Position numbers and translations under genes: made by a program. A stretch of 49,358 nucleotides of DNA from Candidatus Fermentibacterota bacterium. GTDB lineage: Bacteria > Fermentibacterota > Fermentibacteria > Fermentibacterales > JCC-6. The notes under the pieces were generated by a model. The model had not been told where the DNA came from. It did no database searches and saw only the letters and a program-made list of their open reading frames with translations. Positions within the stretch are counted from its first letter, which is position 1, and each line of letters begins with the position of its first letter. Location: positions 1-49,358 of the forward strand of contig JAKPTG010000084.1 in the NCBI GenBank assembly GCA_029571005.1, written 5' to 3'. This document shows, in pieces, positions 22,371 to 46,504 of the stretch.

Positions 22371-23036
22371 ATGAAGTTTGTTGCCATGCTTTCCCTTGTG
22401 CTTGCAGGCTTCGCCTTTGCAGCCGACACCAGCCTCGGCCACATCGATGCCGTGCAGATCGTCCCGGAAATCGCCGGCGAAGACATCATCTGTTCCCAGC
22501 CCTTCAACTACAGCGCCCTTGCCAACGGCCTCAGCTTCCTTGGCGCCAACGGCTGGATGATGGCCGACGATTTCACCTATGACCAGGACGCCTACATTGA
22601 CTTCATCGAGATCTGGGCCATCTACGCCGGCGGCAACCCCGCCGACTACAACATCGAGTTCCGCGAAGACACGGGCGGCTCGGGCCCCGGCGAGCTCTAC
22701 GAGAGCTTCAACGCCACCGGCGTGGACCACACCAACACCGGTCTTACCCAGTGGGGCTACCAGCTGTGGTACAGCGAGATCACCGTTGATCCGCAGAGCT
22801 TCACCGGCGGCACCAAGTACTGGCTCGCCATGCAGACCTCCGGCTCCGCCGGCAACGACTTCTGGCTGTCGGCCAACCAGACCTGGGCCGACATGAACTA
22901 CTTCAGCCAGGATAACGGCACCTCCTGGACCAGCAGCCAGGGCATGTGGGGCACCGCCTACGAGTGCTTCATGATCCTCAGCGGCGGCACCTCCCTCACC
23001 CGCGACTCCTGGGGCGCCATCAAGACCCTCTTTTAG
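22371..23036 (+). CDS. Secreted protein of unknown function, probably highly expressed
   Basis: 221 residues. Signal peptide MKFVAMLSLVLAGFAFA with cleavage after AFA. The mature part is acidic and rich in aromatic residues and Asn/Gly/Thr/Ser (YIDFIEIWAIYAGG, KYWLAMQTSGSAGNDFWLS), probably all-beta, like extracellular beta-sandwich modules. No catalytic motif and no type IX-style tail. Gly is almost only GGC, Asn AAC and Ile ATC, while neighbours use many GGG/GGA codons. With the strong promoter, AAGGAG site and a textbook terminator this suggests an abundant monocistronic product, such as a surface-layer or extracellular matrix protein. The function is inferred from expression signals only. 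Confidence 0.85.
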   Translation: MKFVAMLSLVLAGFAFAADTSLGHIDAVQIVPEIAGEDIICSQPFNYSALANGLSFLGANGWMMADDFTYDQDAYIDFIEIWAIYAGGNPADYNIEFREDTGGSGPGELYESFNATGVDHTNTGLTQWGYQLWYSEITVDPQSFTGGTKYWLAMQTSGSAGNDFWLSANQTWADMNYFSQDNGTSWTSSQGMWGTAYECFMILSGGTSLTRDSWGAIKTLF

Positions 23037-23055
23037 TCCGCCGGTTTCCGGCTTC

Positions 23056-23085
23056 GGGGGAGGCTTCGGCCTCCCCCTTTTCTTT
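23056..23085 (+). terminator. Rho-independent terminator
   Basis: Perfect 9 bp stem GGGGGAGGC/GCCTCCCCC closed by a TTCG tetraloop (23056-23077), followed by TTTTCTTT. It lies 20 bp after the secreted-protein stop codon. Confidence 0.95.
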
Positions 23086-23122
23086 GTCCGCCCGGAGTGA
23101 GCCGGGGAGAAGGGAGGTTGAT

Positions 23123-24103
23123 TTGCTGGGGGTGATAGTGACCGCCGCGGCGTGCTCCCTAAGGGTGGGGGAATGCGTGGATTTCCTCCTGGAAAGGTCC
23201 CCCGCCGGAGACGGTTGCGAACCGAACCTTTCGTTGATCGTCGAGAACGTGGAAACGGCCCTGGAGACCAGGGAGGAGTTTCCATGGGGGCCGACCATCC
23301 CCGACAGCGTTTTTATGAGGTACGTGCTCCCCGCCCGGGTGAGCCAGGAGCCCCTGGTCGGCTGGCGCCCCGTCTTCCACGACGCCGTGGCTCCCCTCCT
23401 GTCCGGAGTGACGGACATCGAGGAGGCGGTGCTTATCGTATCGCAATGGAGTGATTCCCTGACCGACTATATGCCCACCCAGTTCAGGGATCAGTCTCCG
23501 TTTACCACCTGGTCCTCCGGTATAGGGAGGTGCGAGGAGCTGACGGTTTTCTTCATGGACGCCCTGAGGAGCGTGGGTATCCCCTGCCGCCAGGCGTACA
23601 CACCCTGGTGGCTCACGGTGGACAGCAACCACGCCTGGCCCGAGGTGTGGACCCCCGGGGGCTGGAAGTGTCTGGAAAAGGTGAGCACCGAGGAAAGGCT
23701 CCCCCTGGAGAATTGGTTTACCGAGAGGGTCCGGAGCGCCGGCCTGGTGGTGGCCGTCGCCGCCGACTCGATTCCAGGCGCCCTGACCTATTCCGCCGGG
23801 GTCTCTATTCTGCCGGTGACCGGCTCCTACGCGCCCACCGGGACTCTGATGATTGCGGACGACACCACGGAGGTATGGGTGAGCATCGCCAACTACGGCG
23901 CCCCCAGACGGCTTCTCCGGATGGCGCCCCCCCTGAGGTCGGCGGACCTGGGGGCCGGGGTGTTCCTCCTCACCTGGGGCTGGCCTGTGAGGTCGGACCT
24001 GGTGGAGGTGGTCCCGGGGGATACGACCCTCTTCCTGCCCCGGGGGGACTCGTTCATTCCGGCGGTATTCCACTTGAATTCGGTTCCGGGAGGTGGGTCA
24101 TGA
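23123..24103 (+). CDS. Transglutaminase-like domain protein, catalytic residues present
   Basis: 326 residues. The transglutaminase-like core has the nucleophile in GIGRCEELTVFFMDALRSVG (Cys137) and the catalytic His in DSNHAWPEVW (His170). The usual following Asp is not obvious (CLEKV instead). The N-terminus MLGVIVTAAACSLRVG is weakly hydrophobic and may be a poor signal peptide. The TTG at 23123 has AGGGAGG 5 nt upstream and starts after the terminator of the preceding gene. Its stop overlaps the paralogous gene (ATGA), so the two are translated together. Substrate unknown; a cysteine protease or peptide-processing role is as likely as cross-linking. Confidence 0.8.
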   Translation: MLGVIVTAAACSLRVGECVDFLLERSPAGDGCEPNLSLIVENVETALETREEFPWGPTIPDSVFMRYVLPARVSQEPLVGWRPVFHDAVAPLLSGVTDIEEAVLIVSQWSDSLTDYMPTQFRDQSPFTTWSSGIGRCEELTVFFMDALRSVGIPCRQAYTPWWLTVDSNHAWPEVWTPGGWKCLEKVSTEERLPLENWFTERVRSAGLVVAVAADSIPGALTYSAGVSILPVTGSYAPTGTLMIADDTTEVWVSIANYGAPRRLLRMAPPLRSADLGAGVFLLTWGWPVRSDLVEVVPGDTTLFLPRGDSFIPAVFHLNSVPGGGS

Positions 24104-25095
24104 TAGCCGCGGGTCTGTTTCTGCTGTTATTCGAGGCGTCCCTCCTGGACAGCCTTCTGGCGCAGACCCAGGGCAACACCGGGGTCTGGATGCAAGCCTT
24201 TGAGAACCTGGAGGGGGAGGAGCTGCTCTGTGCGGAGTATCTCTTCGAGAACATCCCCAGGCTCGACAGACTGGAGATGACCGGGGAAGCCCTGGAGGAT
24301 CACGTCATGGGCGCCCTTGGGGCGCGGCACCTGTTCTACGATGGGGAGTCCATCCCCGACTCCGTCTTTCTGCCCTTTGTCCTCGACTACCGGGTGGACC
24401 AGGAACCGGTTACGCCGTACAGGAAAGCCCTTGGCGGGTTCTGGAGAGACGCGGTGTCCGGCGATTCCGATCCCCACTCCGCGGCGACGGTGATTTGCCG
24501 GGAGATCGGAAGCCGCACCGCGATCACGCAACCGGGCTACCTGGGCGGCGTGGAGCCTCCCCTGGCGGTCCTGGAATCTGCCTCCGGAACTCCGGGGGAG
24601 TGCACGGTGCTTCTCTGCTCCAGCCTGAAGTCTCTGGGGGTGGCGTGCCGGCAGGTGGACGGCTGGTTCTCCGGCCCGGACGGCGGCAGAAGGCGATGGG
24701 TGGAGGTCTGGACCGGGGCGGAGGGGTGGAAGCCTGTGCTTCCGCCCTGGGAGGACGTGCCGGAGGGATTCCGTGGGCTTGCCCTGGCGGTTTGTGAGGC
24801 CGCCGGTGAGATCGTCACCGAAGGGCGGGCCCCGGTGGGAAGACTGGTGATCGCACCTTCGGAGGTCCCCTCCGGGGAAGAGTGGATGGGCACCGTGAAC
24901 ATTCCGGTCACGTCCGGGTATATCCCTTTGGACTGGACGGGGTTTGACCCCGCCGCCGGCGACACGCTGGTCCTGGGGGCCGGGGAGTACCTGCTCTGCG
25001 TCTGTCGCCGGGAGCCCTGGGGAGGCGTGCTCATGAGGACGGAAACGGTGGTGCTGGAGCCGGGCTCGGACCTGGTGTTCCGGCCCTTTCAATGA
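24100..25095 (+). CDS. Transglutaminase-like paralogue lacking the catalytic His
   Basis: 331 residues, with the same order of blocks as the preceding protein: PDSVFLPFVLDYRVDQEP matches PDSVFMRYVLPARVSQEP, and the core GECTVLLCSSLKSLGVACR aligns with its partner's Cys block (Cys168). At the position of NHAWPEVW it reads RRRWVEVW, so the catalytic His is Arg. It starts with a hydrophobic signal-like segment MIAAGLFLLLFEASLL. The natural reading is a tandem duplicate turned into a non-catalytic partner or binding protein. It overlaps both neighbours by 4 bp. Confidence 0.8.
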   Translation: MIAAGLFLLLFEASLLDSLLAQTQGNTGVWMQAFENLEGEELLCAEYLFENIPRLDRLEMTGEALEDHVMGALGARHLFYDGESIPDSVFLPFVLDYRVDQEPVTPYRKALGGFWRDAVSGDSDPHSAATVICREIGSRTAITQPGYLGGVEPPLAVLESASGTPGECTVLLCSSLKSLGVACRQVDGWFSGPDGGRRRWVEVWTGAEGWKPVLPPWEDVPEGFRGLALAVCEAAGEIVTEGRAPVGRLVIAPSEVPSGEEWMGTVNIPVTSGYIPLDWTGFDPAAGDTLVLGAGEYLLCVCRREPWGGVLMRTETVVLEPGSDLVFRPFQ

Positions 25096-25541
25096 GTTCG
25101 GGTTGCATCGCTCCCGGGGGAAATGTCCGGCGGGAACTGATCCGCCTCCGCCGTGTGGTGTGGCCTCTCCGGGAGGCGCTTGCGGCCCTGACCCGGGACG
25201 CACCGGCGCTTTTCAGCCCCGGAACGGTGCCCTGCATGAGGGACCTCCACGATCATGTCGTGCAGGTAATGGACACGGTGGAGAGTTTTCGTGATACCGC
25301 TTCGGGTCTTCTGGATGTGTACCTTTCCGGCATGAGCAATTGGATGAACCAGATCATGAAGGTTCTCACGGTGATAGCCACGATATTCATTCCCCTTTCG
25401 TTCGTTGTCGGAGTATATGGCATGAACTTCCGGCACATGCCCGAACTGGGGTACCCCTGGGCGTATCCGGCGGTATTGGCTCTGTGCGCCGTTATCGCTC
25501 TGGGCATGCCGGCCGTGTTTAAAAGAAAGGGCCGGCTCTGA
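25092..25541 (+). CDS. CorA-like protein with only the C-terminal membrane region
   Basis: 149 residues. It contains the stalk-helix end and both membrane helices of CorA (MNQIMKVLTVIATIFIPLSFVVGVYGMNF and a second helix PAVLALCAVIALGMPAVF), with the signature YGMNF and the basic end KRKGRL. Normal CorA is about 310-350 residues; the cytoplasmic alpha/beta domain is missing. The ATG overlaps the preceding stop (ATGA), and the gene in front is an unrelated protein, so the front half was lost or replaced rather than hidden in another frame nearby. It could be an aberrant divalent-cation channel or a decaying fragment. Confidence 0.75.
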   Translation: MSSGCIAPGGNVRRELIRLRRVVWPLREALAALTRDAPALFSPGTVPCMRDLHDHVVQVMDTVESFRDTASGLLDVYLSGMSNWMNQIMKVLTVIATIFIPLSFVVGVYGMNFRHMPELGYPWAYPAVLALCAVIALGMPAVFKRKGRL

Positions 25542-25565
25542 AGGGCCGTATTTAGAATATGTTCA

Positions 25566-25606: not shown

Positions 25607-26617
25607 ATGTCCCGGGCGGTGTTTCTGCTCGTGCTTCTTCCGGTCTCGTCCGTAGCGGCAGTGGAGGTCTCCGGCCATGTATTCACCCGTTTCGTGAACC
25701 ACGGGAATGTTTCAGCGGGTCCCTCCGGCGAATTCCTGATCAGAAGGGCGGGGATAACCGTGAAATCCCCCCTGGGCAGCAACCTCGAGATGGAAGCGGA
25801 ACTGGAAGCCCTGCCGGGGAGCGCCGCCCTGAACGACTGTTTCATCCTCTGGAGCCCCTCCGACGCCCTGGGTTTCACCATGGGCTATTTCAAGATGCCG
25901 TTCTGCGCCGCCACCACCAAATCCAACTGGAACCTCCTCTCTGTCGAGCGTACCCTGACCCACGAGATAGCCAAGGACCTGGACTACTCCGGAAGATTCC
26001 CGGGGATGGCCGCGGAGTTTTCTCCGCCCCTTCCCCTGTCCCCGGTGTTCACCGCCGGAGCCTTCAGCCGGGGGGGAGTGCATGAGGATCTGGAGATGCG
26101 GTACGCTGCGGTTCTGGACATCAGCCCGGTTTCGGGTCTCACGGTCGGAGGGGGTATCGCGTGCCTGAGGGTCGGGGAGACAAATCTCATGGAACCTTCC
26201 GGTTACTCGGTTTCATCCATTCAGAAGGCCTTTGCCGGCCATATCGCCCTGAAACACTCCTTCTCCTTCAATACCTCCCTTCGGCTGGAGGGGGAGTACA
26301 TGACCGGAGAGAACTGGGAGGAAGCCGATGTCGCCTTCGGCGAGGAGCCGCCCCGGTTCAGGTCCTGCTGGGCCTCCGGCCTTCTGGAGCACAGGCTCAG
26401 GGGGGTGCCGGGCCTGAGATCCCTGGAGGGGGGGCTTTCCTGGTCGTTATCGGTGCCGGAAACCGACGGGGAGTATGAATCCAGGGTGCTGGCCCCCATG
26501 ATCGGGGTCGGAATCACCTCCAGCGCCAGGGTGAGGTTCACCATGATCAATAGGACCTTCGAGGATGACGGCCCGGACTACAGCGACATCGTAGCGGAAC
26601 TGGCGGTCAGATTTTGA
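25607..26617 (+). CDS. Outer-membrane beta-barrel (phosphate-selective-porin-like) protein
   Basis: 336 residues. Signal peptide MSRAVFLLVLLPVSSVAA. The mature chain is an alternating amphipathic beta pattern starting VEVSGHVFTRFVNHGN and ending in a terminal Phe (AELAVRF), the usual signal for barrel insertion. IRRAGITVKSPLGSNLEMEAELE and WSPSDALGFTMGYFKMPFC resemble the porin O/P group. The ATG at 25607 has GGGGAGGG about 6 nt upstream. Its stop overlaps the VTC gene start, making it first in the operon, where a role in phosphate or polyphosphate passage is tempting but unproven. Confidence 0.75.
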   Translation: MSRAVFLLVLLPVSSVAAVEVSGHVFTRFVNHGNVSAGPSGEFLIRRAGITVKSPLGSNLEMEAELEALPGSAALNDCFILWSPSDALGFTMGYFKMPFCAATTKSNWNLLSVERTLTHEIAKDLDYSGRFPGMAAEFSPPLPLSPVFTAGAFSRGGVHEDLEMRYAAVLDISPVSGLTVGGGIACLRVGETNLMEPSGYSVSSIQKAFAGHIALKHSFSFNTSLRLEGEYMTGENWEEADVAFGEEPPRFRSCWASGLLEHRLRGVPGLRSLEGGLSWSLSVPETDGEYESRVLAPMIGVGITSSARVRFTMINRTFEDDGPDYSDIVAELAVRF

Positions 26618-27399
26618 AGGAGACCGTCCCCGAGAAGCTGCATTTCCACAGGTACGAGTTCAAGTACCTGCTGTCCGGGGCAAGAAGGGATGCGGTGCTT
26701 TCGGCTCTGGAGAGGAGGATGGAGCGGGACGCCCACTCCGCTGCGGACGGTTCTTACTGGGTGAGGAGCATGTACTTCGACACCGTTGACTTCGCCTATC
26801 ACCGCGAGAAGGAGTCGGGCCTTCATTACAGGTACAAGTTCAGGATCAGATCCTACGGGGCTGGAACCAAGTCGCCGGTGTTCCTGGAACTGAAGGGCAA
26901 GTACGACAACCTGGTGTTCAAGCATCGTCAGAACCTGGCGGCGGAGGGTCTGGCGGAAGCTCTTGAAGCGGGTACCGGGGCTATGTGTGATTTCGTCACG
27001 GGGAGCGGTCAGTGCAGCGACGTGGGGCTGCACTTCGCCGCGGACTGCTTCCGCAGAAGGCTGTCCCCCAGCCTGGTGGTCGATTACCGCAGAGCGGCCT
27101 TCGAGAATCGGGCCAACCTGGACTTCAGGGCCACGATGGATAGTGATGCGCGGGCCTGGAGGGCCCGCCGGAACGGGGCGCCTACGGGGATCCCCCGGGA
27201 AATTTCACCTTTTTTTTCAATCCTCGAGATAAAGTTCCGATACCGTATGCCGTCCTGGTTCCACAAACTGGTGCAGAATATGAACCTTGTCCGGATTTCG
27301 TTCTCCAAGTTCCACAGGGCCGGGGAGATGCTCTGGATGAACGACGCCTCCGCCAGGTTGAACAGGATGGTGGAGAGGGGGCAGAATTGGCCGCTCTGA
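26614..27399 (+). CDS. VTC-domain polyphosphate polymerase
   Basis: 261 residues: a complete VTC (vacuolar transporter chaperone-type) catalytic domain of the triphosphate-tunnel fold. Markers are RYEFKYLLSG at the N-terminus, WVRSMYFDTVDF, YRYKFRIRSYG, VFLELKGKYDNLVFKHR, VVDYRRAAFE and ILEIKFRYRMPSW. The repeated basic and acidic strands line the tunnel that in yeast Vtc4 makes polyphosphate from ATP. No SPX domain or membrane helix is present; the next gene may provide the membrane part. The start is uncertain: TTG at 26614 overlaps the porin stop, and AAGGAG lies after it, so a later non-ATG start is possible. Confidence 0.88.
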   Translation: MKETVPEKLHFHRYEFKYLLSGARRDAVLSALERRMERDAHSAADGSYWVRSMYFDTVDFAYHREKESGLHYRYKFRIRSYGAGTKSPVFLELKGKYDNLVFKHRQNLAAEGLAEALEAGTGAMCDFVTGSGQCSDVGLHFAADCFRRRLSPSLVVDYRRAAFENRANLDFRATMDSDARAWRARRNGAPTGIPREISPFFSILEIKFRYRMPSWFHKLVQNMNLVRISFSKFHRAGEMLWMNDASARLNRMVERGQNWPL

Positions 27400-28079
27400 T
27401 TGATTGGTTCACCCAGGTTGACGAGACCATGGGCTACAGCCTGCTGTATATCCTGGAGAACCTGCTGGCCGCCCTTGCGGCCGGCCTGTTCGTCGGCTGC
27501 CTTTACAGGAAGACCCACCGGGGGCTCTCCTACTCCCAGTCCATGGCGGTGACCCTGGTGATGATGTGCGTGATAGTCGCAGCGGTGATGATGGTCATCG
27601 GCAGCAACCTGGCCCGGGCCTTCGCCCTGGTGGGAGCCCTCACCATCGTTCGCTTCAGAACCGTGGTGAAGGACACCCGGGACACCGCCTTCATCTTCTT
27701 CGTTCTGACCGAGGGTATCGCCTGCGGCACGGCCAACCTCAAGCTGGCGACGCTGTCAACCCTCTTCATCGGCCTGGTGGTGTGGATTCTCGCCAAAACG
27801 AACTATGGCAGCATAACCCAGAGCGAATACATCCTGCGGTTCCGTTACGACAGACATGGGGGCGGTGATGAGAACTACGTCCAGACCATCCGCCGGCTCA
27901 CCCGGAACAGTACGCTGATCCATGTGGAGCCTTCCGGGGAGGGCAGGTACCTTACTCTGACCTACGACGTCCGCCTGGCTCCGGGAACGGCTCCCGCGGG
28001 TCTGGCCGCCGCCCTGGAGGCGCAGGTCGGGGTGGACGGGGTGAGCATGGTATCCTCCTGTAACGACGTGGAGTACTGA
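27387..28079 (+). CDS. DUF4956 family membrane protein
   Basis: 230 residues. Four membrane helices in the first ~140 residues (LLYILENLLAALAAGLFVGC, SMAVTLVMMCVIVAAVMMVI, and onward) with the family core LARAFALVGALTIVRFRTVVKDTRDTAF. A soluble C-terminal alpha/beta domain of ~90 residues follows. The TTG at 27387 lies behind GAGAGGGGG and overlaps the VTC gene by 13 bp; an ATG at 27429 is the alternative. DUF4956 proteins commonly sit beside VTC and CotH genes, suggesting a membrane partner for polyphosphate handling; the function is not established. Confidence 0.85.
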   Translation: MAALIDWFTQVDETMGYSLLYILENLLAALAAGLFVGCLYRKTHRGLSYSQSMAVTLVMMCVIVAAVMMVIGSNLARAFALVGALTIVRFRTVVKDTRDTAFIFFVLTEGIACGTANLKLATLSTLFIGLVVWILAKTNYGSITQSEYILRFRYDRHGGGDENYVQTIRRLTRNSTLIHVEPSGEGRYLTLTYDVRLAPGTAPAGLAAALEAQVGVDGVSMVSSCNDVEY

Positions 28080-28102
28080 GGAAGGCTCGGGAAGGGACGC
28101 GG

Positions 28103-30637
28103 ATGGGTATTGCGCCGGTTTTATGCCTGCTCCTGTCCGGTGGCCTTCCGCATTACCGGGTCACGATGCTTCCGGAAGACCTGGAAGCCCTCTACGGGGA
28201 TCCGGAGTCGGGGATCCTGTACCCGGCCCATGTCTCCTGCCCCTACGGAGAGAGCGACTGCCTCATCGGCTTCAGGGGAACCACCGCGCTTTACCTGCCC
28301 AAGAAGTCATGGAGGATGGATTTGGAGGATCCCGGCATGGCGGGCGGGCGCCGGATCAACCTGGACGCCCACTACAGGGATCTTACAATGATGCGGAACC
28401 ACCTGGCCATGGAACTGGTGCGCCGTATGGGGCTTCCGGCCCCCGCAACCCGCCATGTGACCCTCTCGATCAACGATGAGGCCATGGGGGTGTACCTGGA
28501 GACGGAAAGGGTGGATACGGACTTCCTGGTCCGAAACGGCCTCCCCGACGGAAGCGTGTTCAAGGCCAGGAAAGATACCGCCCGTTTCGTTTCCTACCTG
28601 TCCGGGGTGGATCCGGCGCTCGGGTTCGAAAGCAGGACCGACTCGGAATGGCAACTTCCGGAACTGGGCGGCCTCATCGGGGCGGTATGCCTGGGGGAGG
28701 ATCTGCGGGGACTGTTCGACGTGGAACTCCTTGTGGGCAACATGGCGGCGAACCTGGCCATGATGGAGTCCGACGCTCCGGCCAAGAACTACTACCTGCA
28801 CCTGGGGTCGGACGGAGTCTGGCGCTTTTTCCCCTGGGACCATGACGCCAGTTTCGGCAACGACTGGCGGGGGGCCTTCCACCCTGATTATGTGGATTAT
28901 GTCTTCGCCCCCCATATGCAGGTTTTCACGCCCTTTATCGTGATGATGGGAGACGATGGCCTCATGGAGTCCTTCCGGGGCCGGCTCCTGGAGAGCGCCG
29001 GCATTATGGCCCTGGAGCTGGTGGAAAGCCTCGACTCGGTAAGAACGGCGATCCGGGATGATGTGTACATGGATCCCCTGCGGCAGGGAAGCCCGGAGGA
29101 TTTCGAGGCCGCCTGCGACAGCCTGAGGTGGTTCATACTGAGAAGAGCCGACGTTGTGGCGGGTCTCTCCGCCCACCACGGCACCCCGGATTCCATGAAA
29201 ATCACCGTCACTCCCGCATGGCTGGAACCCGGTGCCGAAAGCCTGCTGGTGACCGTTTCCTGCACCGATTCGCTTCGCTCGTGCCTGCTGGGTTACTTCG
29301 CCGACGGCGACACCCTGTGGAGGACGGCGGAGATGGCTCCGGTTCCCGGCGGCGGGAAGCGGGAATGGTTTCTGGAAATGTCCCCGGAGAGCTTCGGCGA
29401 GAGTATCAGGTTCTTTGTGGAGGCCTGCCAGGCGACCCTTCCCCTGCCGGCCCCACCGATATTTTGTCCGCGTTACGGCGTGGTCGCAGGGAAGTACAAG
29501 GGTGAAGCCCTGCCTTCGGCGGTGCACGTGAGTCGGACGCCGGATGCCGGAGACCTCACTCCGGCGATCCAACTACGTCTGGGACCAGATTTATGGGCTC
29601 TGCCCCTCGTGAACACCGGCGGGACGGTCATGGACCTGTCGCTTTGCCGGCTCGCCCTTGGCGCCCCCCTCAGGATGGTTTTCCTTCCGGAAAGCCTCAC
29701 TCTCCTTCCGGGAGAGACCCTGTTCGTATCCAATCGGAAAAGCATTCTGGACATGGAGCTGCCCGGGAGGAAGATCGTGGGGGACTGCACCGCCGCTACC
29801 GCCGCCGGAACCCGGCTGGAGGTGAGCGATCCGGGCTGGAGCCGGGTTGCGGTTCACTCCGTGCCGGCCGGGGAGAGAAACCTCAGGCTCCTGACCGGTT
29901 TCCCCACGGTCACGGAGATAAGCTACAACCAACCCGGTGCTGATCCACCGGGGGACTGGCTGGAGATCTACAACCCGGGGAACGAACCTCTGGACCTTTC
30001 CCTCGCCCGGATTTCCGATTCGCCCCAGGGTGGGACGGTCTTCCCCCGGGGCACCGTCATCCCTCCCTTCGGGTTTCTGGTGATGGCCTCGGACCCGGAC
30101 CGGTTCCAGCCCTTATACCCCGATCTGCCGTGCAGCCTTCTGGACCTGGGCTTCAAGCTCGCCTCCGAGGGGGAGCCCCTGTGTTTCACCGGAAGGGACG
30201 GGGTCTGCATGACCCTCCTGGAGTTCACCGACCGGAGCCCGTGGCCCGAAACCGACGAAGGGATAATCGCCCTTCTGCACCCCGGCCTGGACCAGGCCGA
30301 CCCTTCCTCCTGGGTCTCCGTGGAGCGGCCGGGGTCGCCGGGCGCGCCGAACCCGGTGTGGGCCCTGGGGAGCGGGTCAACCGTACGCATTGAGGGGTTG
30401 CGCCCTAACCCCTCCCCGGGAGCCGTGATGTTTTACAGCGTGTACGGCGGGGTGGGCCCTGTGACGGCTTCCGTGCTGGACCTGGCGGGAAGGGTGGTGT
30501 ACGACGCCGGTACGCTGGAGCCCGGAGCCCGGAGCTATACCCTGCGGCTCCCCGGCGACCTCCCATCGGGGGTTTACTTTCTGGTGGCACGGTCCTCCGG
30601 GTCGGCCGCCGTGAGGAAGTTTCTATGGTTGCCCTGA
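28103..30637 (+). CDS. CotH kinase-family protein with lamin-tail and type IX-like tail domains
   Basis: 844 residues, probably exported by a short hydrophobic N-terminus. The CotH atypical kinase domain occupies ~15-380: FRGTTALYLPKKSWRMDL, NHLAMELVRRMGLPAP, GVYLETERVDTDFL, and the metal-binding PWDHDASFG at 244-252. A lamin-tail-like domain lies at ~610-740 (TEISYNQPG, DWLEIYNPGNEPLDLS, FGFLVMASDPDRF). The end looks like a type IX secretion sorting domain: IEGLRPNPSPG, VLDLAGRVVYD, SGVYFLVARSS, FLWLP. CotH kinases phosphorylate Ser residues of surface proteins in Bacillus. Here the layout suggests a cell-surface kinase exported by a type IX-like system. Confidence 0.88.
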   Translation: MGIAPVLCLLLSGGLPHYRVTMLPEDLEALYGDPESGILYPAHVSCPYGESDCLIGFRGTTALYLPKKSWRMDLEDPGMAGGRRINLDAHYRDLTMMRNHLAMELVRRMGLPAPATRHVTLSINDEAMGVYLETERVDTDFLVRNGLPDGSVFKARKDTARFVSYLSGVDPALGFESRTDSEWQLPELGGLIGAVCLGEDLRGLFDVELLVGNMAANLAMMESDAPAKNYYLHLGSDGVWRFFPWDHDASFGNDWRGAFHPDYVDYVFAPHMQVFTPFIVMMGDDGLMESFRGRLLESAGIMALELVESLDSVRTAIRDDVYMDPLRQGSPEDFEAACDSLRWFILRRADVVAGLSAHHGTPDSMKITVTPAWLEPGAESLLVTVSCTDSLRSCLLGYFADGDTLWRTAEMAPVPGGGKREWFLEMSPESFGESIRFFVEACQATLPLPAPPIFCPRYGVVAGKYKGEALPSAVHVSRTPDAGDLTPAIQLRLGPDLWALPLVNTGGTVMDLSLCRLALGAPLRMVFLPESLTLLPGETLFVSNRKSILDMELPGRKIVGDCTAATAAGTRLEVSDPGWSRVAVHSVPAGERNLRLLTGFPTVTEISYNQPGADPPGDWLEIYNPGNEPLDLSLARISDSPQGGTVFPRGTVIPPFGFLVMASDPDRFQPLYPDLPCSLLDLGFKLASEGEPLCFTGRDGVCMTLLEFTDRSPWPETDEGIIALLHPGLDQADPSSWVSVERPGSPGAPNPVWALGSGSTVRIEGLRPNPSPGAVMFYSVYGGVGPVTASVLDLAGRVVYDAGTLEPGARSYTLRLPGDLPSGVYFLVARSSGSAAVRKFLWLP

Positions 30638-32799
30638 TCCTTCTCCCGATGCTCCTGTCGGGATCACCCTGGCCCGATTCGGTGGTGACTATTGACCTGC
30701 GGTTCGATCCGGAACACTGGGCCTACGCCTGCGCCCATCCCGACCTGGAAATCCTGGTTGACGCCGAGATAGCCATCGGCGACCGGTCGTCCGATTGCAC
30801 CATGCAGATCCGGGGACAGACCGGCTCCTTCCATCCCAAGAAATCCATCAAGGTCAGAATCCTTGGAGGCGGAGAGTTCTTCGGCTTCGACGAACTCAAC
30901 CTGAACGCCCAGTACTCCGACAGGAGCCGGATCCGGGAGAACCTGTCGTACCTGTTCCATGCCTCCTGCGGCCAGATCACCCCCGTCACCGCCATGACCA
31001 GGGTTCTGTTCAACGGGGTCCCCCAGGGGCCCTACCTGTTCGTGGAGGATGTTGACGGGGATTTCGCCCTTAGATCATGGCTTCCGGACGATGCGGTGAT
31101 CTACAAGTGCAGGGAGTACGGAGCCTCGCTGGCCTCGCCTTACCGCCTGGACCTCTACAGGAAGAAAACCTTCGAGGACCGCCCCCCGGACGACCTGGAA
31201 TGGTTCATCCGCTGGCTGGGAACCGCTCCGGACAGCGTATTTCTGGCGGACATATCCCGGTGGGTCCACCTGAACGAACTCCTTACCTGTGTAGCCGTGA
31301 ACACCCTGATAGGACACGGCAGCACCTATTACCACAACTACCACATGGTCCTGGACGCTCCCGGGCTCTTCGGAAGATGGCGCATGATCCCCTGGGACAT
31401 GGACAAGACGTGGGGTTCCGGCTACAGACCCGATCTGCCTTACTACTGGGTGACGAACAATCTCTCCGTGCCGAACACCCTGATGTGGCGGCTCTGGTGC
31501 ATTCCCCACACCCGGGGGCTCCTCCTGGACCGGCTCACGGACCTGTCCCCCGGTTTCGTCTCCTGGGCCGCCTCGGGGGTGGTGGACTCCCTGGAGGCGC
31601 TGGTGGAGCCTCTGGTGCAGGAAGACCCGTTCAGGGACTACTCCATGGAGGAGTTCCACCAATCCGTCATGATCGTGCGGGACTGGCCGGCGGAGCGCCT
31701 GCGTTATCTGGAACAGATGTACGACCTGTGGCCTCTGCCCTTCCGCCTGTATCCCACGGCCGCGCAGGGCGACGGGTCCGTCGTTGCGCACTGGAGCCCG
31801 GCGGAAAGGTCCTTGGGTTACAGGGTCGCCCTCTCCACGGACTCCACCTTCCTGGATCAGTCGGCGGTTTTCTGGGAATCACAGACTTCGGATACATTCA
31901 TGGTACTCCCTGAAAACAGGGCTCCGTCCATGGGGAAAACCTTCCTGCAGGTAAGGGCGTTCAACCAGTACCGGGAGGAGAGGGCCCTGAATCGCTCGGT
32001 TCCCGCGGCCCCGGCCCCTTCGCTCCCCGGGAGCGGGGATATCGTCATCAACGAGGTGTTTTACCGGAACGGCGACTACATCCGGCCCGGCGACTGGATC
32101 GAACTGGTGAACGCCGGAGACGAACCGGTGAACCTGGCCGGTTGGTCCATCCGGGACACGCAGGACAGGAACCTCCTTGTCCTGGGGGACGAGACGGTTC
32201 CCGCCGGCGGTTTTCTCGTTATCATCGGCGACCCGGAGGCCTTCGGGCGGTTCTACCCTGCCTGCCCCACCCTCTGCAAACCTCTTTATTTCGAGCTTTC
32301 CGCGGAAGGCGAGACCCTCAGGCTCTACGACGCCCTGGGCAATATGGCGGACTACGTTCCCTACAAGCCGGTCCGGCCCTGGCCCATCGAGCCCGCGGAG
32401 GGCGGTTGGAGCCTTTCCCTGGTGAGCCCGGAACGGGACAACTCCCTGCCTTCCTCCTGGAGAGCGACCCCCAACGGGGGAACCCCGGGGCTTTCCAACG
32501 ACGAACCCCCTCTCTGGACGCCCCGGACGATTTTTTCCATGGGGGGCGTCACGCCCAACCCGGCCTTCGACCGGATCACCGTCCGGCTCTTCGCCCCCCC
32601 CGGCGGGCCTTGTGTTCTGAGAATATTCGATCTGGCGGGACGGGTTGCGGCCGGCCCGGAGGAGATCGCCATAGGCCCTGCCGCTCAAGACTTTTCCATG
32701 GATATCGGGGGGCTTCCTCCGGGCCTCTACTTTGTGCATGCCGCCTACGCCGGGTTGCAACGATCCTCCGCCTTCGTCAGGCTGGCGGGTGCACCGTGA
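30625..32799 (+). CDS. Second CotH kinase-family protein with lamin-tail and type IX-like tail
   Basis: 724 residues with the same architecture as the preceding gene but strongly diverged, so an old duplication. Signal-like MVALILLPMLLSG. CotH core: IRGQTGSFHPKKSIKVRIL, NLSYLFHASCG, GPYLFVEDVDGDF, and PWDMDKTWG at 256-264. A fibronectin-like stretch (~375-450) precedes the lamin-tail-like domain (DIVINEVFYRNGDYIRPGDW, IELVNAGDEPVNLAGWSIRD). The C-terminus has VTPNPAFDRITVRL, IFDLAGRVAAG and LPPGLYFVHAAY, a type IX-like sorting region. The ATG at 30625 has AGGAAG 5 nt upstream and overlaps the first cotH by 13 bp. Confidence 0.88.
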   Translation: MVALILLPMLLSGSPWPDSVVTIDLRFDPEHWAYACAHPDLEILVDAEIAIGDRSSDCTMQIRGQTGSFHPKKSIKVRILGGGEFFGFDELNLNAQYSDRSRIRENLSYLFHASCGQITPVTAMTRVLFNGVPQGPYLFVEDVDGDFALRSWLPDDAVIYKCREYGASLASPYRLDLYRKKTFEDRPPDDLEWFIRWLGTAPDSVFLADISRWVHLNELLTCVAVNTLIGHGSTYYHNYHMVLDAPGLFGRWRMIPWDMDKTWGSGYRPDLPYYWVTNNLSVPNTLMWRLWCIPHTRGLLLDRLTDLSPGFVSWAASGVVDSLEALVEPLVQEDPFRDYSMEEFHQSVMIVRDWPAERLRYLEQMYDLWPLPFRLYPTAAQGDGSVVAHWSPAERSLGYRVALSTDSTFLDQSAVFWESQTSDTFMVLPENRAPSMGKTFLQVRAFNQYREERALNRSVPAAPAPSLPGSGDIVINEVFYRNGDYIRPGDWIELVNAGDEPVNLAGWSIRDTQDRNLLVLGDETVPAGGFLVIIGDPEAFGRFYPACPTLCKPLYFELSAEGETLRLYDALGNMADYVPYKPVRPWPIEPAEGGWSLSLVSPERDNSLPSSWRATPNGGTPGLSNDEPPLWTPRTIFSMGGVTPNPAFDRITVRLFAPPGGPCVLRIFDLAGRVAAGPEEIAIGPAAQDFSMDIGGLPPGLYFVHAAYAGLQRSSAFVRLAGAP

Positions 32800-39731: not shown

Positions 39732-40452
39732 CACCCACTGCCACCTGGCGGACCAGCCCCTGTTCGACGACCTGCCGGGGGTTCTGGAGAGAGCCCGGAA
39801 TGCCGGTGTGAAGGCCATGGTGGTTCCGTCGTCCTCCATGGGCGACTGGGAAAGGGTGGCATCCCTGGCCCGCAGGCCCGGGATAACCGCCGCCTTCGGC
39901 GTCCATCCGTGGAACGCTCGGGAGGGGGTGGATCTGCCTTCCCTCAGAAACCGCCTGGCGGAGGCCGTCGCCCTGGGCGAGGTCGGGCTGGACTGGAAGG
40001 TGGACGTTCCCAGGAACATTCAGATGGACTGTCTGGAGGCCCAGCTCATCCTGGCCCGGGAGCTGGGGCTGCCGGTGCTGCTCCATTGCCGGGGCGCCTT
40101 CAACGAGCTGCTCGAGCTGCTGAAGGCCCATCCCCCGAAAGGGGCCGTGATCCATGCTTTCAGCCGGGGGCCCGAACTCATGAGGCGTTTTTTGGAGCAG
40201 GGCTGCCACATCGGTTTCGGAGGCGCCGTGACCCGGGCCGGCGCCGGGAACGCCAGGGCCAGCGTCGTGGAAGTGCCCGAGGACCGTTTCGTACTGGAGA
40301 CCGATGCCCCCTGGATCGGGGTTGAAGGGGGCCCTTCCGAACCATCGTCCCTGCCCAGGGTGGCCGGGACCGTGGCCTTCCTCCGGGGGGTTTCCCGGAA
40401 GCGCGTGGAAGCCGCTTCGTCGGAGTCCGCCGACAGGCTTGGGCTTTTATGA
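39721..40452 (+). CDS. tatD: TatD-family metal-dependent hydrolase
   Basis: 243 residues, amidohydrolase fold. Metal ligands: TDTHCHLAD at the N-terminus (HxH), ALGEVGLDW (Glu), LPVLLHCRGAF (His), AVIHAFSRG (His) and LETDAPWI (Asp). All are at the family positions, so the DNase/hydrolase site is intact. Slightly shorter than the usual ~255-260 residues. It overlaps yitT upstream and tcdA downstream (ATGA). Confidence 0.93.
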   Translation: MLTDTHCHLADQPLFDDLPGVLERARNAGVKAMVVPSSSMGDWERVASLARRPGITAAFGVHPWNAREGVDLPSLRNRLAEAVALGEVGLDWKVDVPRNIQMDCLEAQLILARELGLPVLLHCRGAFNELLELLKAHPPKGAVIHAFSRGPELMRRFLEQGCHIGFGGAVTRAGAGNARASVVEVPEDRFVLETDAPWIGVEGGPSEPSSLPRVAGTVAFLRGVSRKRVEAASSESADRLGLL

Positions 40453-41291
40453 TGGAAAGGCGGTTCGATCGGGTCCGGGACTTCTTCGGAGAAGGGGGGC
40501 TGAAGCGGATAAGGAGCGCCAGGGTGCTGGTGGCCGGTCTTGGGGGGGTGGGAAGCCACTGCGCCTCCGCCCTGGCCAGGACCGGGGTGGGGGAGCTGGT
40601 GCTGTGCGACTTCGACAGGGTCACCGAGACGAGCCTGAACCGCAGCGCCCTGTTCGGTCCCGGTGACGTGGGCAGGGGCAAGGCCGAGGCGGCGGCGGGA
40701 TTGCTGGCGGCCCTGTGCCCCGGAACCCGGGTTGGGTATCGCACCGTTTTCATCCACTCCGACACCCTTCCGGAACTGTTGCCCAGGGATTGCGGCCTGA
40801 TTGCGGCGGACGCCATTGACAGCCTCAACCCCAAGGCTGAACTCATTTCCTGGTGTCTGGCCCAGGGTATTCCCGTGTTCAGTAGCATGGGCGCCGCCGG
40901 CCGGCGCAACCCCTCCATGGTGAGGGTGGGGAACCTGTGGGAGTCCAGGGGCTGCCCCCTGGCGAGACAGCTTCGCCGCTGTCTGGCTAAAAGAAACGCC
41001 ATGGGCGAAGTGGAATGCGTGTACTCCGAGGAGAGGCCCCTGAAGCCCCTGCCTCCGGACCGGGACGATGCCTTGACGGTCAGGGGCAGGGTCAGGAACC
41101 GGCTGCCGAGCCTCATGACCGTACCCGGCGTCTTCGGCTACGCCCTTGCCCAACTGGTTATCGACTGGATAGTGACGGGGGTTGGCGGGAACGTATGGGA
41201 ATCGAACCCATCCGGGGTGGTTTCAGCACCCGACGCCGGATTTGAAGTCCGGGAGGGACACCAGTCCCCTTCCGCTCCCGCACATCCTTAA
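40449..41291 (+). CDS. tcdA: tRNA threonylcarbamoyladenosine dehydratase
   Basis: 280 residues of the E1-like superfamily, TcdA (CsdL/YgdL) branch, which cyclises t6A37 in tRNA to ct6A using ATP. N-terminus RRFDRVRDFFGEGGLKRIR, ATP site VLVAGLGGVGSHCASALART, then DFDRVTETSLNRSALFG. RNPSMVRVG and GVFGYALAQLVIDW are also typical. The normal protein should end about 10 residues after VIDWIV. Instead the frame continues ~35 residues (GNVWESNPSG to SPSAPAHP), translated from the antisense of a tRNA-Sec gene. The enzyme core is intact; the tail is an oddity. Confidence 0.9.
   Translation: MMERRFDRVRDFFGEGGLKRIRSARVLVAGLGGVGSHCASALARTGVGELVLCDFDRVTETSLNRSALFGPGDVGRGKAEAAAGLLAALCPGTRVGYRTVFIHSDTLPELLPRDCGLIAADAIDSLNPKAELISWCLAQGIPVFSSMGAAGRRNPSMVRVGNLWESRGCPLARQLRRCLAKRNAMGEVECVYSEERPLKPLPPDRDDALTVRGRVRNRLPSLMTVPGVFGYALAQLVIDWIVTGVGGNVWESNPSGVVSAPDAGFEVREGHQSPSAPAHP
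41183..41279 (-). tRNA. selC: tRNA-Sec (anticodon TCA)
   Basis: 97 nt on the minus strand. 5' acceptor GGGAGCG pairs with 3' CGTTCCC (one G-T). The D arm contains CTGG. The anticodon stem CCGGA/TCCGG closes the loop CTTCAAA with anticodon TCA (plus-strand 41243-41245). A long variable arm has a GGGTG/CACCC stem. The T arm ATGGG-TTCGATT-CCCAT precedes discriminator G and an encoded CCA. The extended acceptor, long variable arm and UCA anticodon are those of selenocysteine tRNA. The 8th acceptor pair would be G-A. It lies antisense to the 3' end of tcdA. Confidence 0.93.
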
Positions 41292-44539: not shown

Positions 44540-46504
44540 ATGTTTGCGATATTGATTCTCTGTGGAGCTTCCCTGACCCGGGAAGTCAGCCTGCCGGAAC
44601 CCGCGGTGTTCCCCTCCTCCGTGCCGGGTTTCTCCACCGTGGTGATCCCGGGCTGCCGCAGGGCATCCCTTCCCGGATACCCGCTGCTGCCCCTGGTTCC
44701 CGTGGTGTTCGCCTTCCGCGGAGAACCCGGACAAGTGTCGCTGAACCTCGACAACTTCAGGCCGGTGGCCCTGGATCTTCCCGTCGAACCTGCGTCGGCG
44801 CCGATGCCCATCGGTTTTGTGGAAGCCAGGATGCCGGTTCCTGCCCCCGAGGTGTACGCCTCCCCGGAGTGCCATCCCCGGGATGCCCTGGCCGGGGTCC
44901 ATGTCGGCAGGCTCATGGGCTGTACCATCTACTCCTGCCTGGTCAGCCCCTGGAGGTACAGGCCCCTCGAGGGTCGGCTCGAAATCGCCGGGAAGGTGTC
45001 GCTGACCCTGGAGTACCGGGAGGAGGCCCCCGAAACGGCCCTTTCCCCTCTCCAGGCCCGGCTGGTCGACGACAGGGCGGCCAGGCTGGCCGGTGAGAGC
45101 GTTCCGCCCGCGCCGGTCGCCGGCCGGGGCTCCGCGGAGTACCTGCTCATAACCGGCGACGGCTATCTGCCGGTGTTCCAGCCGCTGCTGGAAGCCCACG
45201 CCCGGAGGGGGCTGACGGTGAAGGCCCTGGGGATGGGGCGGGTGACGACGGTTTACGGAGGCGTCAGGGAGTGCATCCGGTGGCACTACCTGAACGAGGG
45301 CACGGTATTCGTCCTCCTGGGGGGCGACGCTTCCGTGGTGCCCGCAAAGGAGATTCTGGTGGGGTGCAGCGACGAGAACCTATGGGAGTACGCCCCGGTT
45401 GACCTCTACTACGCCTGTCTTGACGGCGACTGGGACGGCGACGGCGACGGGGTTCCGGGCCAGCCTTGGGACGATCCGGACCTGTACCCCGAGGTCATCC
45501 TTGGGAGGGGCCTGTTCCGCACACAAGCCGGTGCGGCGGCTTTTGTGGACAAAACCGTCACGTACCTCGACAACCCCCCCGAGGGCGGGTGGTCCTCCAC
45601 CGCGACCCTGAACGGGGGGCTGCTCTTTCCGGACATCGGCTACACCGGAGCCAGGGGCTGTGAAGTCATGGCGGGGTATTTTCCGGACGACTGGGAAATA
45701 GTCCGCTCCTACGAGTTCGAGGTCGGGGACTATCCCGACACTTTTTTCGAGCCCATCGCCGCCGGCGCGGGCTGGAACCACTACGCCGGCCACGGCAACA
45801 GCCGGGGGGTTTACTGGTCCACCTTCAGCAGCCAGATCAAGGTGGCCGACCAGTATCTGCTCAACAACGGCCGCAGAACGGGGATTCACACCAGCATCGC
45901 CTGCCATTCCGGCGACTTCACCCACCGGAGAACCTGCCTGGCGGGGATGCTCCTGCACCATCCGGACGGCGGCGGAGTGGCCGTGGCCATGAACACCAGC
46001 TGGGGGTGGGAGGGCTTCTGGCCGGAGCTGGGCCCCAGCGAGAATATGTGTGCGGACATGGTCAGGCTGGTCTTTGAAGAGGGTGTGTCGACCCTGGGAG
46101 GGGCGGTCACCGCCTGCCGGGACCTGCAGGTCCCCCTGATATCCGGGGGCTATGACAGAACCTTCCAGTCCCTGCTGGTTTATACCGCCTTCATGGATCC
46201 GGCTCTCGAGGTTCTCCATACACCGTCATGTCCGCCCCCTCCCCCGCAGCCGGTTCTGCGGGTCTCCCTGGCCGGGCGGAACCCGGTGTCCCACGGCGAG
46301 GCGCTTTTCAAAGTGGACTTCACCGGGGGGCCCGTCACCCTGAGTGTGTTCGACATGGCGGGGAGGCTCGCCTTCAGCTCCGTTCTGCATGAGTCCGGGA
46401 TCGTCGCCTGGGACTGTTCCGGGGTGCCCGCGGGGGTTTACACCGCCGTGGCCCGCCGTGGAGGCTGCGCCGGCAGGGCCAGGGTGACGGTTCTGCGGCC
46501 CTAA
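44540..46504 (+). CDS. C25 (gingipain-like) cysteine peptidase with type IX-like tail
   Basis: 654 residues. N-terminal signal [17 protein letters not shown] is short. A pro-domain-like beta region runs to ~190. The peptidase C25 domain follows: [36 protein letters not shown], an Asp-rich probable calcium loop ([10 protein letters not shown]), the catalytic His in [10 protein letters not shown] and the catalytic Cys in SIACHSGDF. The C-terminal ~80 residues ([32 protein letters not shown]) look like a type IX sorting domain. Secreted protease by architecture. Stands alone, divergent from glgP; its stop overlaps the convergent acyltransferase stop by 3 bp. GGGAGGG lies just before the ATG. Confidence 0.88.

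Follow-up and report, generated by a model that had tools for sequence, protein, structure and literature searches.

Gene content and conservation of the operon

We examined a group of five genes at positions 25607-32799 of a 49,358-nucleotide stretch of DNA (hereafter the window) from Candidatus Fermentibacterota (Hyd24-12); its genome is G000, and other G and L labels denote the genomes and loci compared with it. An initial annotation made from the letters of the sequence had described these genes as one operon joining an outer-membrane barrel, a VTC-type polyphosphate polymerase, the membrane protein DUF4956 and two CotH proteins. Open reading frames (ORFs) and Pfam matches confirmed the positions of all five genes on the + strand, in the order porin, VTC, DUF4956, CotH1, CotH2:

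25607..26617, + strand: porin, predicted 16-strand outer-membrane protein, distantly OprP/OprO-like (alternative ORF start at 25559)
26614..27399, + strand: VTC, predicted soluble VTC-domain polyphosphate polymerase (PF09359, E = 1.2e-32)
27387..28079, + strand: DUF4956, inner-membrane protein (PF16316, E = 4.8e-16)
28103..30637, + strand: CotH1, with a signal peptide, a CotH kinase domain (5.1e-45), a lamin-tail domain (LTD, 1.6e-9) and a type IX sorting tail
30625..32799, + strand: CotH2, with a CotH fold (2.1e-38), an LTD (5.4e-13) and a type IX-like tail

The genes are tightly packed, with overlaps of 4 nt between porin and VTC and 13 nt both between VTC and DUF4956 and between CotH1 and CotH2, and a gap of 23 nt between DUF4956 and CotH1. 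No convincing sigma-70 promoter candidate was found for the operon. The one VTC gene and the two CotH genes of G000 all lie inside it.

VTC and DUF4956 were present in an identical set of 30 of the 42 Fermentibacterota genomes, and CotH in 33. The three genomes with CotH and without VTC were G009, with a weak fragment, and G019 and G039, both incomplete; the hits in the three were single or fragmentary, and two of the three are less than 70% complete. The porin of the locus was found at full strength only in VTC carriers, the other genomes having a distant paralogue or nothing. Wherever the contig was long enough, CotH1, porin, VTC and DUF4956 were contiguous, CotH1 lying downstream in this genus and upstream in other genera. 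The grouping is not due to chance, as no VTC locus of the Fermentibacterota with sufficient contig lacks this block. SprA, of the type IX translocon, was found across the phylum (in G000 with a joined score of 359 bits), and on a SprA tree the presence of the set requires at least three gains or losses, G009 and G022 being scattered among the carriers. Type IX secretion was rejected as the cause of the co-occurrence, because SprA occurs in genomes both with and without the set.

Polymerase, membrane partner, CotH proteins and porin

The VTC domain of the window scored 113.8 bits against a curated cut-off of 23, and a profile of 28 VTC sequences matched the yeast Vtc4 structure 3g3q (E = 3.1e-9). 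In this alignment K17, R77, R79, E205, S231 and K232 correspond to Vtc4 K200, R264, R266, E426, S457 and K458, where the Vtc4 numbers are the chain numbering of the printed alignment minus a 3-residue offset inferred from known residues. All six residues are invariant in 28/28 sequences; the active site is intact, in line with the intact basic/acidic strands described in the initial annotation. The protein (261 aa) is a VTC domain alone, with neither an SPX nor a Vtc1-type membrane domain, and a transmembrane stretch was found in none of 81 relatives. PPK1 was absent from all 30 VTC carriers and, among the 42 genomes, was represented by a single fragment in G004, which has no VTC; PPK2 was absent from all 42. 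Consequently, if the carriers make polyphosphate by any known route, they do so with VTC.

The VTC/CYTH superfamily includes other activities, and this VTC is tied to Vtc4 by sequence alone. Both points count for a rival reading in which a VTC-like triphosphate tunnel enzyme of other chemistry makes a different short phosphate product that is exported for CotH. We consider this very unlikely, as the equivalents of Vtc4 R264, R266 and E426 are all conserved and the R264A/R266A/E426N mutant is catalytically impaired (PMC9911596).

The structural model of DUF4956 (pLDDT 72) has five long membrane helices followed by a C-terminal ferredoxin/ACT-like domain. A Foldseek search with this model placed the MgtC C-terminal domain (2lqj) second, at E = 0.011 and amid many ferredoxin-like matches. 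Pfam MgtC was matched weakly (E<=0.1) by 27 of 28 DUF4956 orthologues, at best with 8.6e-4; the window protein scored 13.6 bits, under the cut-off of 31.4, and a search of PDB sequences gave no significant match. In plan the modelled protein may resemble MgtC, with five predicted transmembrane helices and a putative ACT-like domain. Two conserved basic loops, KTHRGLSYSQ and RFRTVVKDTRD, would by the positive-inside rule lie on the side of the ACT-like domain, towards VTC. In many Fermentibacterota (L021-L041) a secreted, near-pure lamin-tail protein of 195-199 aa adjoins DUF4956 on the opposite strand.

A CotH1 profile matched the B. cereus CotH structure 5jd9 at E = 1.4e-43. The catalytic set of CotH1 is complete (K67, E135, D224, N229, D246 and D248) and is conserved among its orthologues; D224 aligns with the catalytic D228 of B. 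subtilis CotH and D246 with the metal-binding D251, these two having been placed in the 5jd9 sequence, presumably correctly, by their 23-residue spacing. CotH2 is related to the same structure (phmmer, E = 2.3e-21) and keeps the PWDxD metal motif, but its motif STYYHNY has Ser in place of D228 in 12/12 CotH2 sequences. B. subtilis CotH D228Q is inactive (PMC7821199). CotH2 probably serves as a partner without kinase activity or as a substrate-binding pseudokinase. The annotation's "two CotH kinases" fits CotH1, a predicted kinase with its full set of catalytic residues, and was rejected for CotH2, in which the catalytic Asp is replaced in every orthologue.

Its claims about the other domains held: both CotH proteins have lamin-tail domains, and their C-termini resemble type IX sorting signals, CotH1 scoring above the TIGR04183 cut-off of 23 bits (27.5) and CotH2 just below (21.3 bits, 2e-4). 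The TIGR04183 tail is present in 24/24 CotH1 orthologues, and the N-terminus is hydrophobic in 38 of the 39 CotH proteins of Fermentibacterota. As VTC has no transmembrane stretch and the CotH proteins bear N-terminal export signals, the polymerase is predicted to lie inside and the kinase outside. The Fermentibacterota CotH signal peptides are very short and have few or no positive charges, for example MIYLILLIFQGSLPLYSV.

The AlphaFold2 model of the porin has 16 strands (pLDDT 75.5). OprP (2o4v) gave the highest query TM-score in the Foldseek list (E = 4.7e-10, TMq 0.69), and OprO and many other porins matched it in fold as well. OprP and OprO were also on top when a porin profile was compared with PDB sequences, with weak E values of 0.036-0.098. 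The window porin matches Porin_O_P at E = 0.015 only; 17 of 28 orthologues match this family, the best at 5.7e-8.

Equivalent loci in other bacteria

We sampled 392 genomes of the phylum Planctomycetota and read 61 VTC loci among them. VTC was present in 102 genomes, CotH in 126 and both in 94, so that CotH occurred in 94 of 102 VTC carriers against 32 of 290 other genomes (odds ratio 95, uncorrected for relatedness). DUF4956 was found in 55 of the 61 loci, in 45 of them within 200 bp, and a CotH kinase domain in 42, in 37 of them on the same strand; in the genome of L016, the CotH-VTC-DUF4956 group contains the only CotH. Apparent VTC-CotH gene fusions in Planctomycetota were rejected, the long ORFs being out-of-frame start extensions in GC-rich DNA.

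In 21 of the 61 loci DUF4956 is followed closely, in the same orientation, by a gene for an HlyD adaptor, which among reliable start calls begins no more than about 45 nt from the DUF4956 stop (PF13437, 1.6e-11 in L053 and 1.7e-19 in L072), and no HlyD of that family was found elsewhere in these loci. They are not near-copies of one another, since the median identity of their DUF4956 proteins is 39%, L053, L057 and L059 looking close. In L085 the operon reads CotH-VTC-DUF4956-HlyD, its genes overlapping or separated by a few bases. A TolC-like outer-membrane efflux protein (OEP) is encoded next to HlyD in five loci (L053, L055, L057, L059 and L068), two of which were scanned and scored 1.6e-21 and 8.7e-16. 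L053 and L059 have a complete VTC-DUF4956-HlyD-OEP-CotH operon with no other transporter, and no other inner-membrane transporter was seen in the HlyD operons read. In L097 a true Porin_O_P (2.7e-19) stands beside the VTC-DUF4956-CotH triplet.

In the monoderms Planococcus maritimus and Pseudobutyrivibrio xylanivorans the VTC-DUF4956-CotH triplet stands bare, with no outer-membrane part. An export function predicts such parts in diderms and none in monoderms, and this is what we observed, the monoderm sample being small. Elsewhere, Nonomuraea has a DUF4956-CotH pair; on a Hymenobacter volaticus plasmid (L131), which has no VTC beside its DUF4956, the next genes encode a TolC-family protein and a type IX cargo; and the DUF4956 of Sinorhizobium meliloti psymA (L132) has neither VTC nor CotH in its vicinity. 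In L132 a secreted protein of 538 aa, caspase-like in appearance, precedes DUF4956. The initial annotation had named VTC, DUF4956 and CotH as recurring neighbours; this is now borne out in two phyla and in monoderms, and the co-conservation of CotH with VTC on which it had staked its reading was found in Fermentibacterota and Planctomycetota alike.

The monoderm loci also bear on a rival reading, in which what VTC makes is used to decorate or cross-link a polysaccharide or matrix outside the cell, and CotH, no protein kinase, is a transferase acting on sugars or polymers. It is suggested by CotH, VTC and DUF4956 genes that lie next to Pel and other exopolysaccharide clusters. Gram-positive Pel clusters include CotH, a polyphosphate polymerase and DUF4956 (+DUF4832) as accessory genes (PMC7112168), the Pseudobutyrivibrio triplet sits among glycosyltransferases, and NELoc-2 of C. 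perfringens, which carries part of the triplet, unexplained, includes a glycosyltransferase (PMC2879425), a layout shared by Planococcus. Against it, gene lists were drawn up for a few operons of Fermentibacterota and Planctomycetota and showed no glycosyltransferases; we regard this reading as quite unlikely.

A candidate trans-envelope polyphosphate module

We propose that the operon encodes a trans-envelope module in which polyphosphate is exported to serve CotH1 at the surface, a proposal we judge to be evenly balanced between right and wrong. VTC would make polyphosphate from ATP on the cytoplasmic side of the inner membrane. DUF4956, translationally coupled to VTC, would anchor the enzyme at the membrane and pass the growing chain across, a role modelled on the membrane helices of Vtc4 and Vtc1 in the yeast VTC complex. 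The outer-membrane part, a 16-strand porin here and in many Planctomycetota HlyD, alone or joined by a TolC-like channel, would connect to the exterior, where CotH1, exported by type IX secretion and held at the surface, would act as a kinase. Since ATP is scarce outside the cell, exported polyphosphate would most likely be the phosphate donor or the substrate of CotH1; that it is the direct donor for CotH we consider doubtful. In another phylum the core of the set is kept and the export channel is of quite another kind, suggesting that polyphosphate made within the cell is sent out and could there serve proteins without access to ATP; on predictions from sequence the synthesis and export of polyphosphate are reasonably supported. 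The annotation had offered inner-membrane polyphosphate used for phosphorylation or anchoring of surface proteins. The general idea fits the co-conservation of VTC and CotH, the sole polymerase, the catalytic residues of CotH1, the predicted export of CotH and the HlyD/TolC-like parts; nothing found favours anchoring. It is tempting, if speculative, to extend the proposal to a widespread machine in which polyphosphate secreted through DUF4956 and interchangeable outer-membrane channels would replace ATP as the donor with which extracytoplasmic CotH kinases phosphorylate proteins.

Several observations weigh against the proposed module. The DUF4956 model has a pLDDT of only 72, and its likeness is to MgtC and to no known exporter. 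In the modelled porin, the inward strand faces are estimated to hold more Asp/Glu than Lys/Arg, and inspection of the pore face found no OprP-type arginine ladder. The porin is thus unlike a pore for polyanions, and a dedicated polyphosphate pore, to which the weak likeness to OprP/OprO had pointed, was downgraded as a candidate; the cargo may be Mg2+, Pi or nothing of the kind. Among the Planctomycetota, 8 of the 102 VTC carriers have no CotH, and the 32 genomes with CotH and without VTC indicate that CotH does not always depend on VTC. HlyD is present in only 21 of the 61 loci, and the TolC-containing loci stem from about three lineages. We found no biochemistry on a bacterial VTC-DUF4956 pair in the open literature.

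Some of these features would suit a store of phosphate or Mg2+. VTC and an MgtC-like DUF4956 might make and hold polyphosphate at the cytoplasmic face for phosphate/Mg2+ homeostasis; CotH and the porin would share no more than their regulation, such as a response to scarce phosphate or Mg2+, and would never touch polyphosphate. The likeness of DUF4956 to MgtC, an acidic porin suited to cations and a corA gene adjoining the operon in this genus all favour such a store. It leaves unexplained, however, the co-conservation of CotH in two phyla and in monoderms and the HlyD/TolC genes within the operon, and we think it unlikely.

The corA gene, absent from the initial annotation, is truncated in the window and lies directly upstream of the operon:

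25092..25541, + strand: C-terminal half of corA, a CorA Mg2+ transporter gene (positions 181-318 only of the 320 of TIGR00383)

The stop of a transglutaminase-like gene immediately precedes it. In a sister genome (L020/L004) corA is full-length (355 aa) and its distance from that gene is greater by about 5.9 kb; a deletion or a misassembly is the apparent cause of the truncation. CorA was rejected as a member of the operon, as it adjoins it in this genus only. Two transglutaminase-core proteins, both kept in the sister genome, are encoded in tandem at 22946-25095. Elsewhere in the window, 18297-20603 matches TIGR03788 (marine proteobacterial sortase target) at 9e-122, under the model cut-off and in a host outside the Proteobacteria. 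A predicted selenocysteine tRNA gene on the - strand (41183-41279) overlaps the end of a ThiF/TcdA-like ORF (40449-41291), and 44540-46504 encodes a C25 peptidase of the gingipain type, whose hydrophobic N-terminus is very short and which by score is no PorU.

Operons that join a polymerase, an inner-membrane protein, an adaptor or channel and surface kinases make two questions directly testable: from what donor exported bacterial kinases draw phosphate in the absence of ATP, and what DUF4956 does. They also offer a candidate route by which bacteria might secrete polyphosphate, possibly linked to the biofilm matrix (through the Pel clusters) and to gut bacteria. We found no description in the open-access literature, where only three of the papers searched name DUF4956, of the link to HlyD/TolC or a porin, of the type IX tails or of the loss of the CotH2 active site.

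The nearest precedents each share part of this arrangement. The Pel clusters and NELoc-2 have the same core families side by side, and for the former it was guessed that CotH regulates Pel, the polymerase being left unexplained (PMC7112168); unlike the present loci they are monoderm and lack outer-membrane parts, type IX tails and HlyD/TolC. The Bacillus spore-coat kinase CotH (5jd9/5jda) shares the kinase fold, and CotH1 has equivalents of its D228, D251, Lys and Glu, whereas the Fermentibacterota proteins are predicted to be exported to the cell surface with an LTD and a type IX tail, and CotH2 has Ser for D228. The phosphate and polyphosphate porins OprP and OprO share the 16-strand barrel, the top PDB sequence matches and, in 17/28 orthologues, Porin_O_P with the window porin, which is only weakly similar to them and appears to have an acidic pore face with no arginine ladder. 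In the eukaryotic VTC complex (Vtc1/Vtc3/Vtc4), the catalytic VTC domain has the active-site residues found here and likewise stands beside a membrane partner, and synthesis coupled to membrane transit is its proposed mechanism (PMC9911596, PMC10657179). Here, in contrast, VTC is a separate soluble protein without SPX, DUF4956 takes the place of the Vtc1-type domain, and there are two membranes to cross, with CotH and outer-membrane genes in the same operon.

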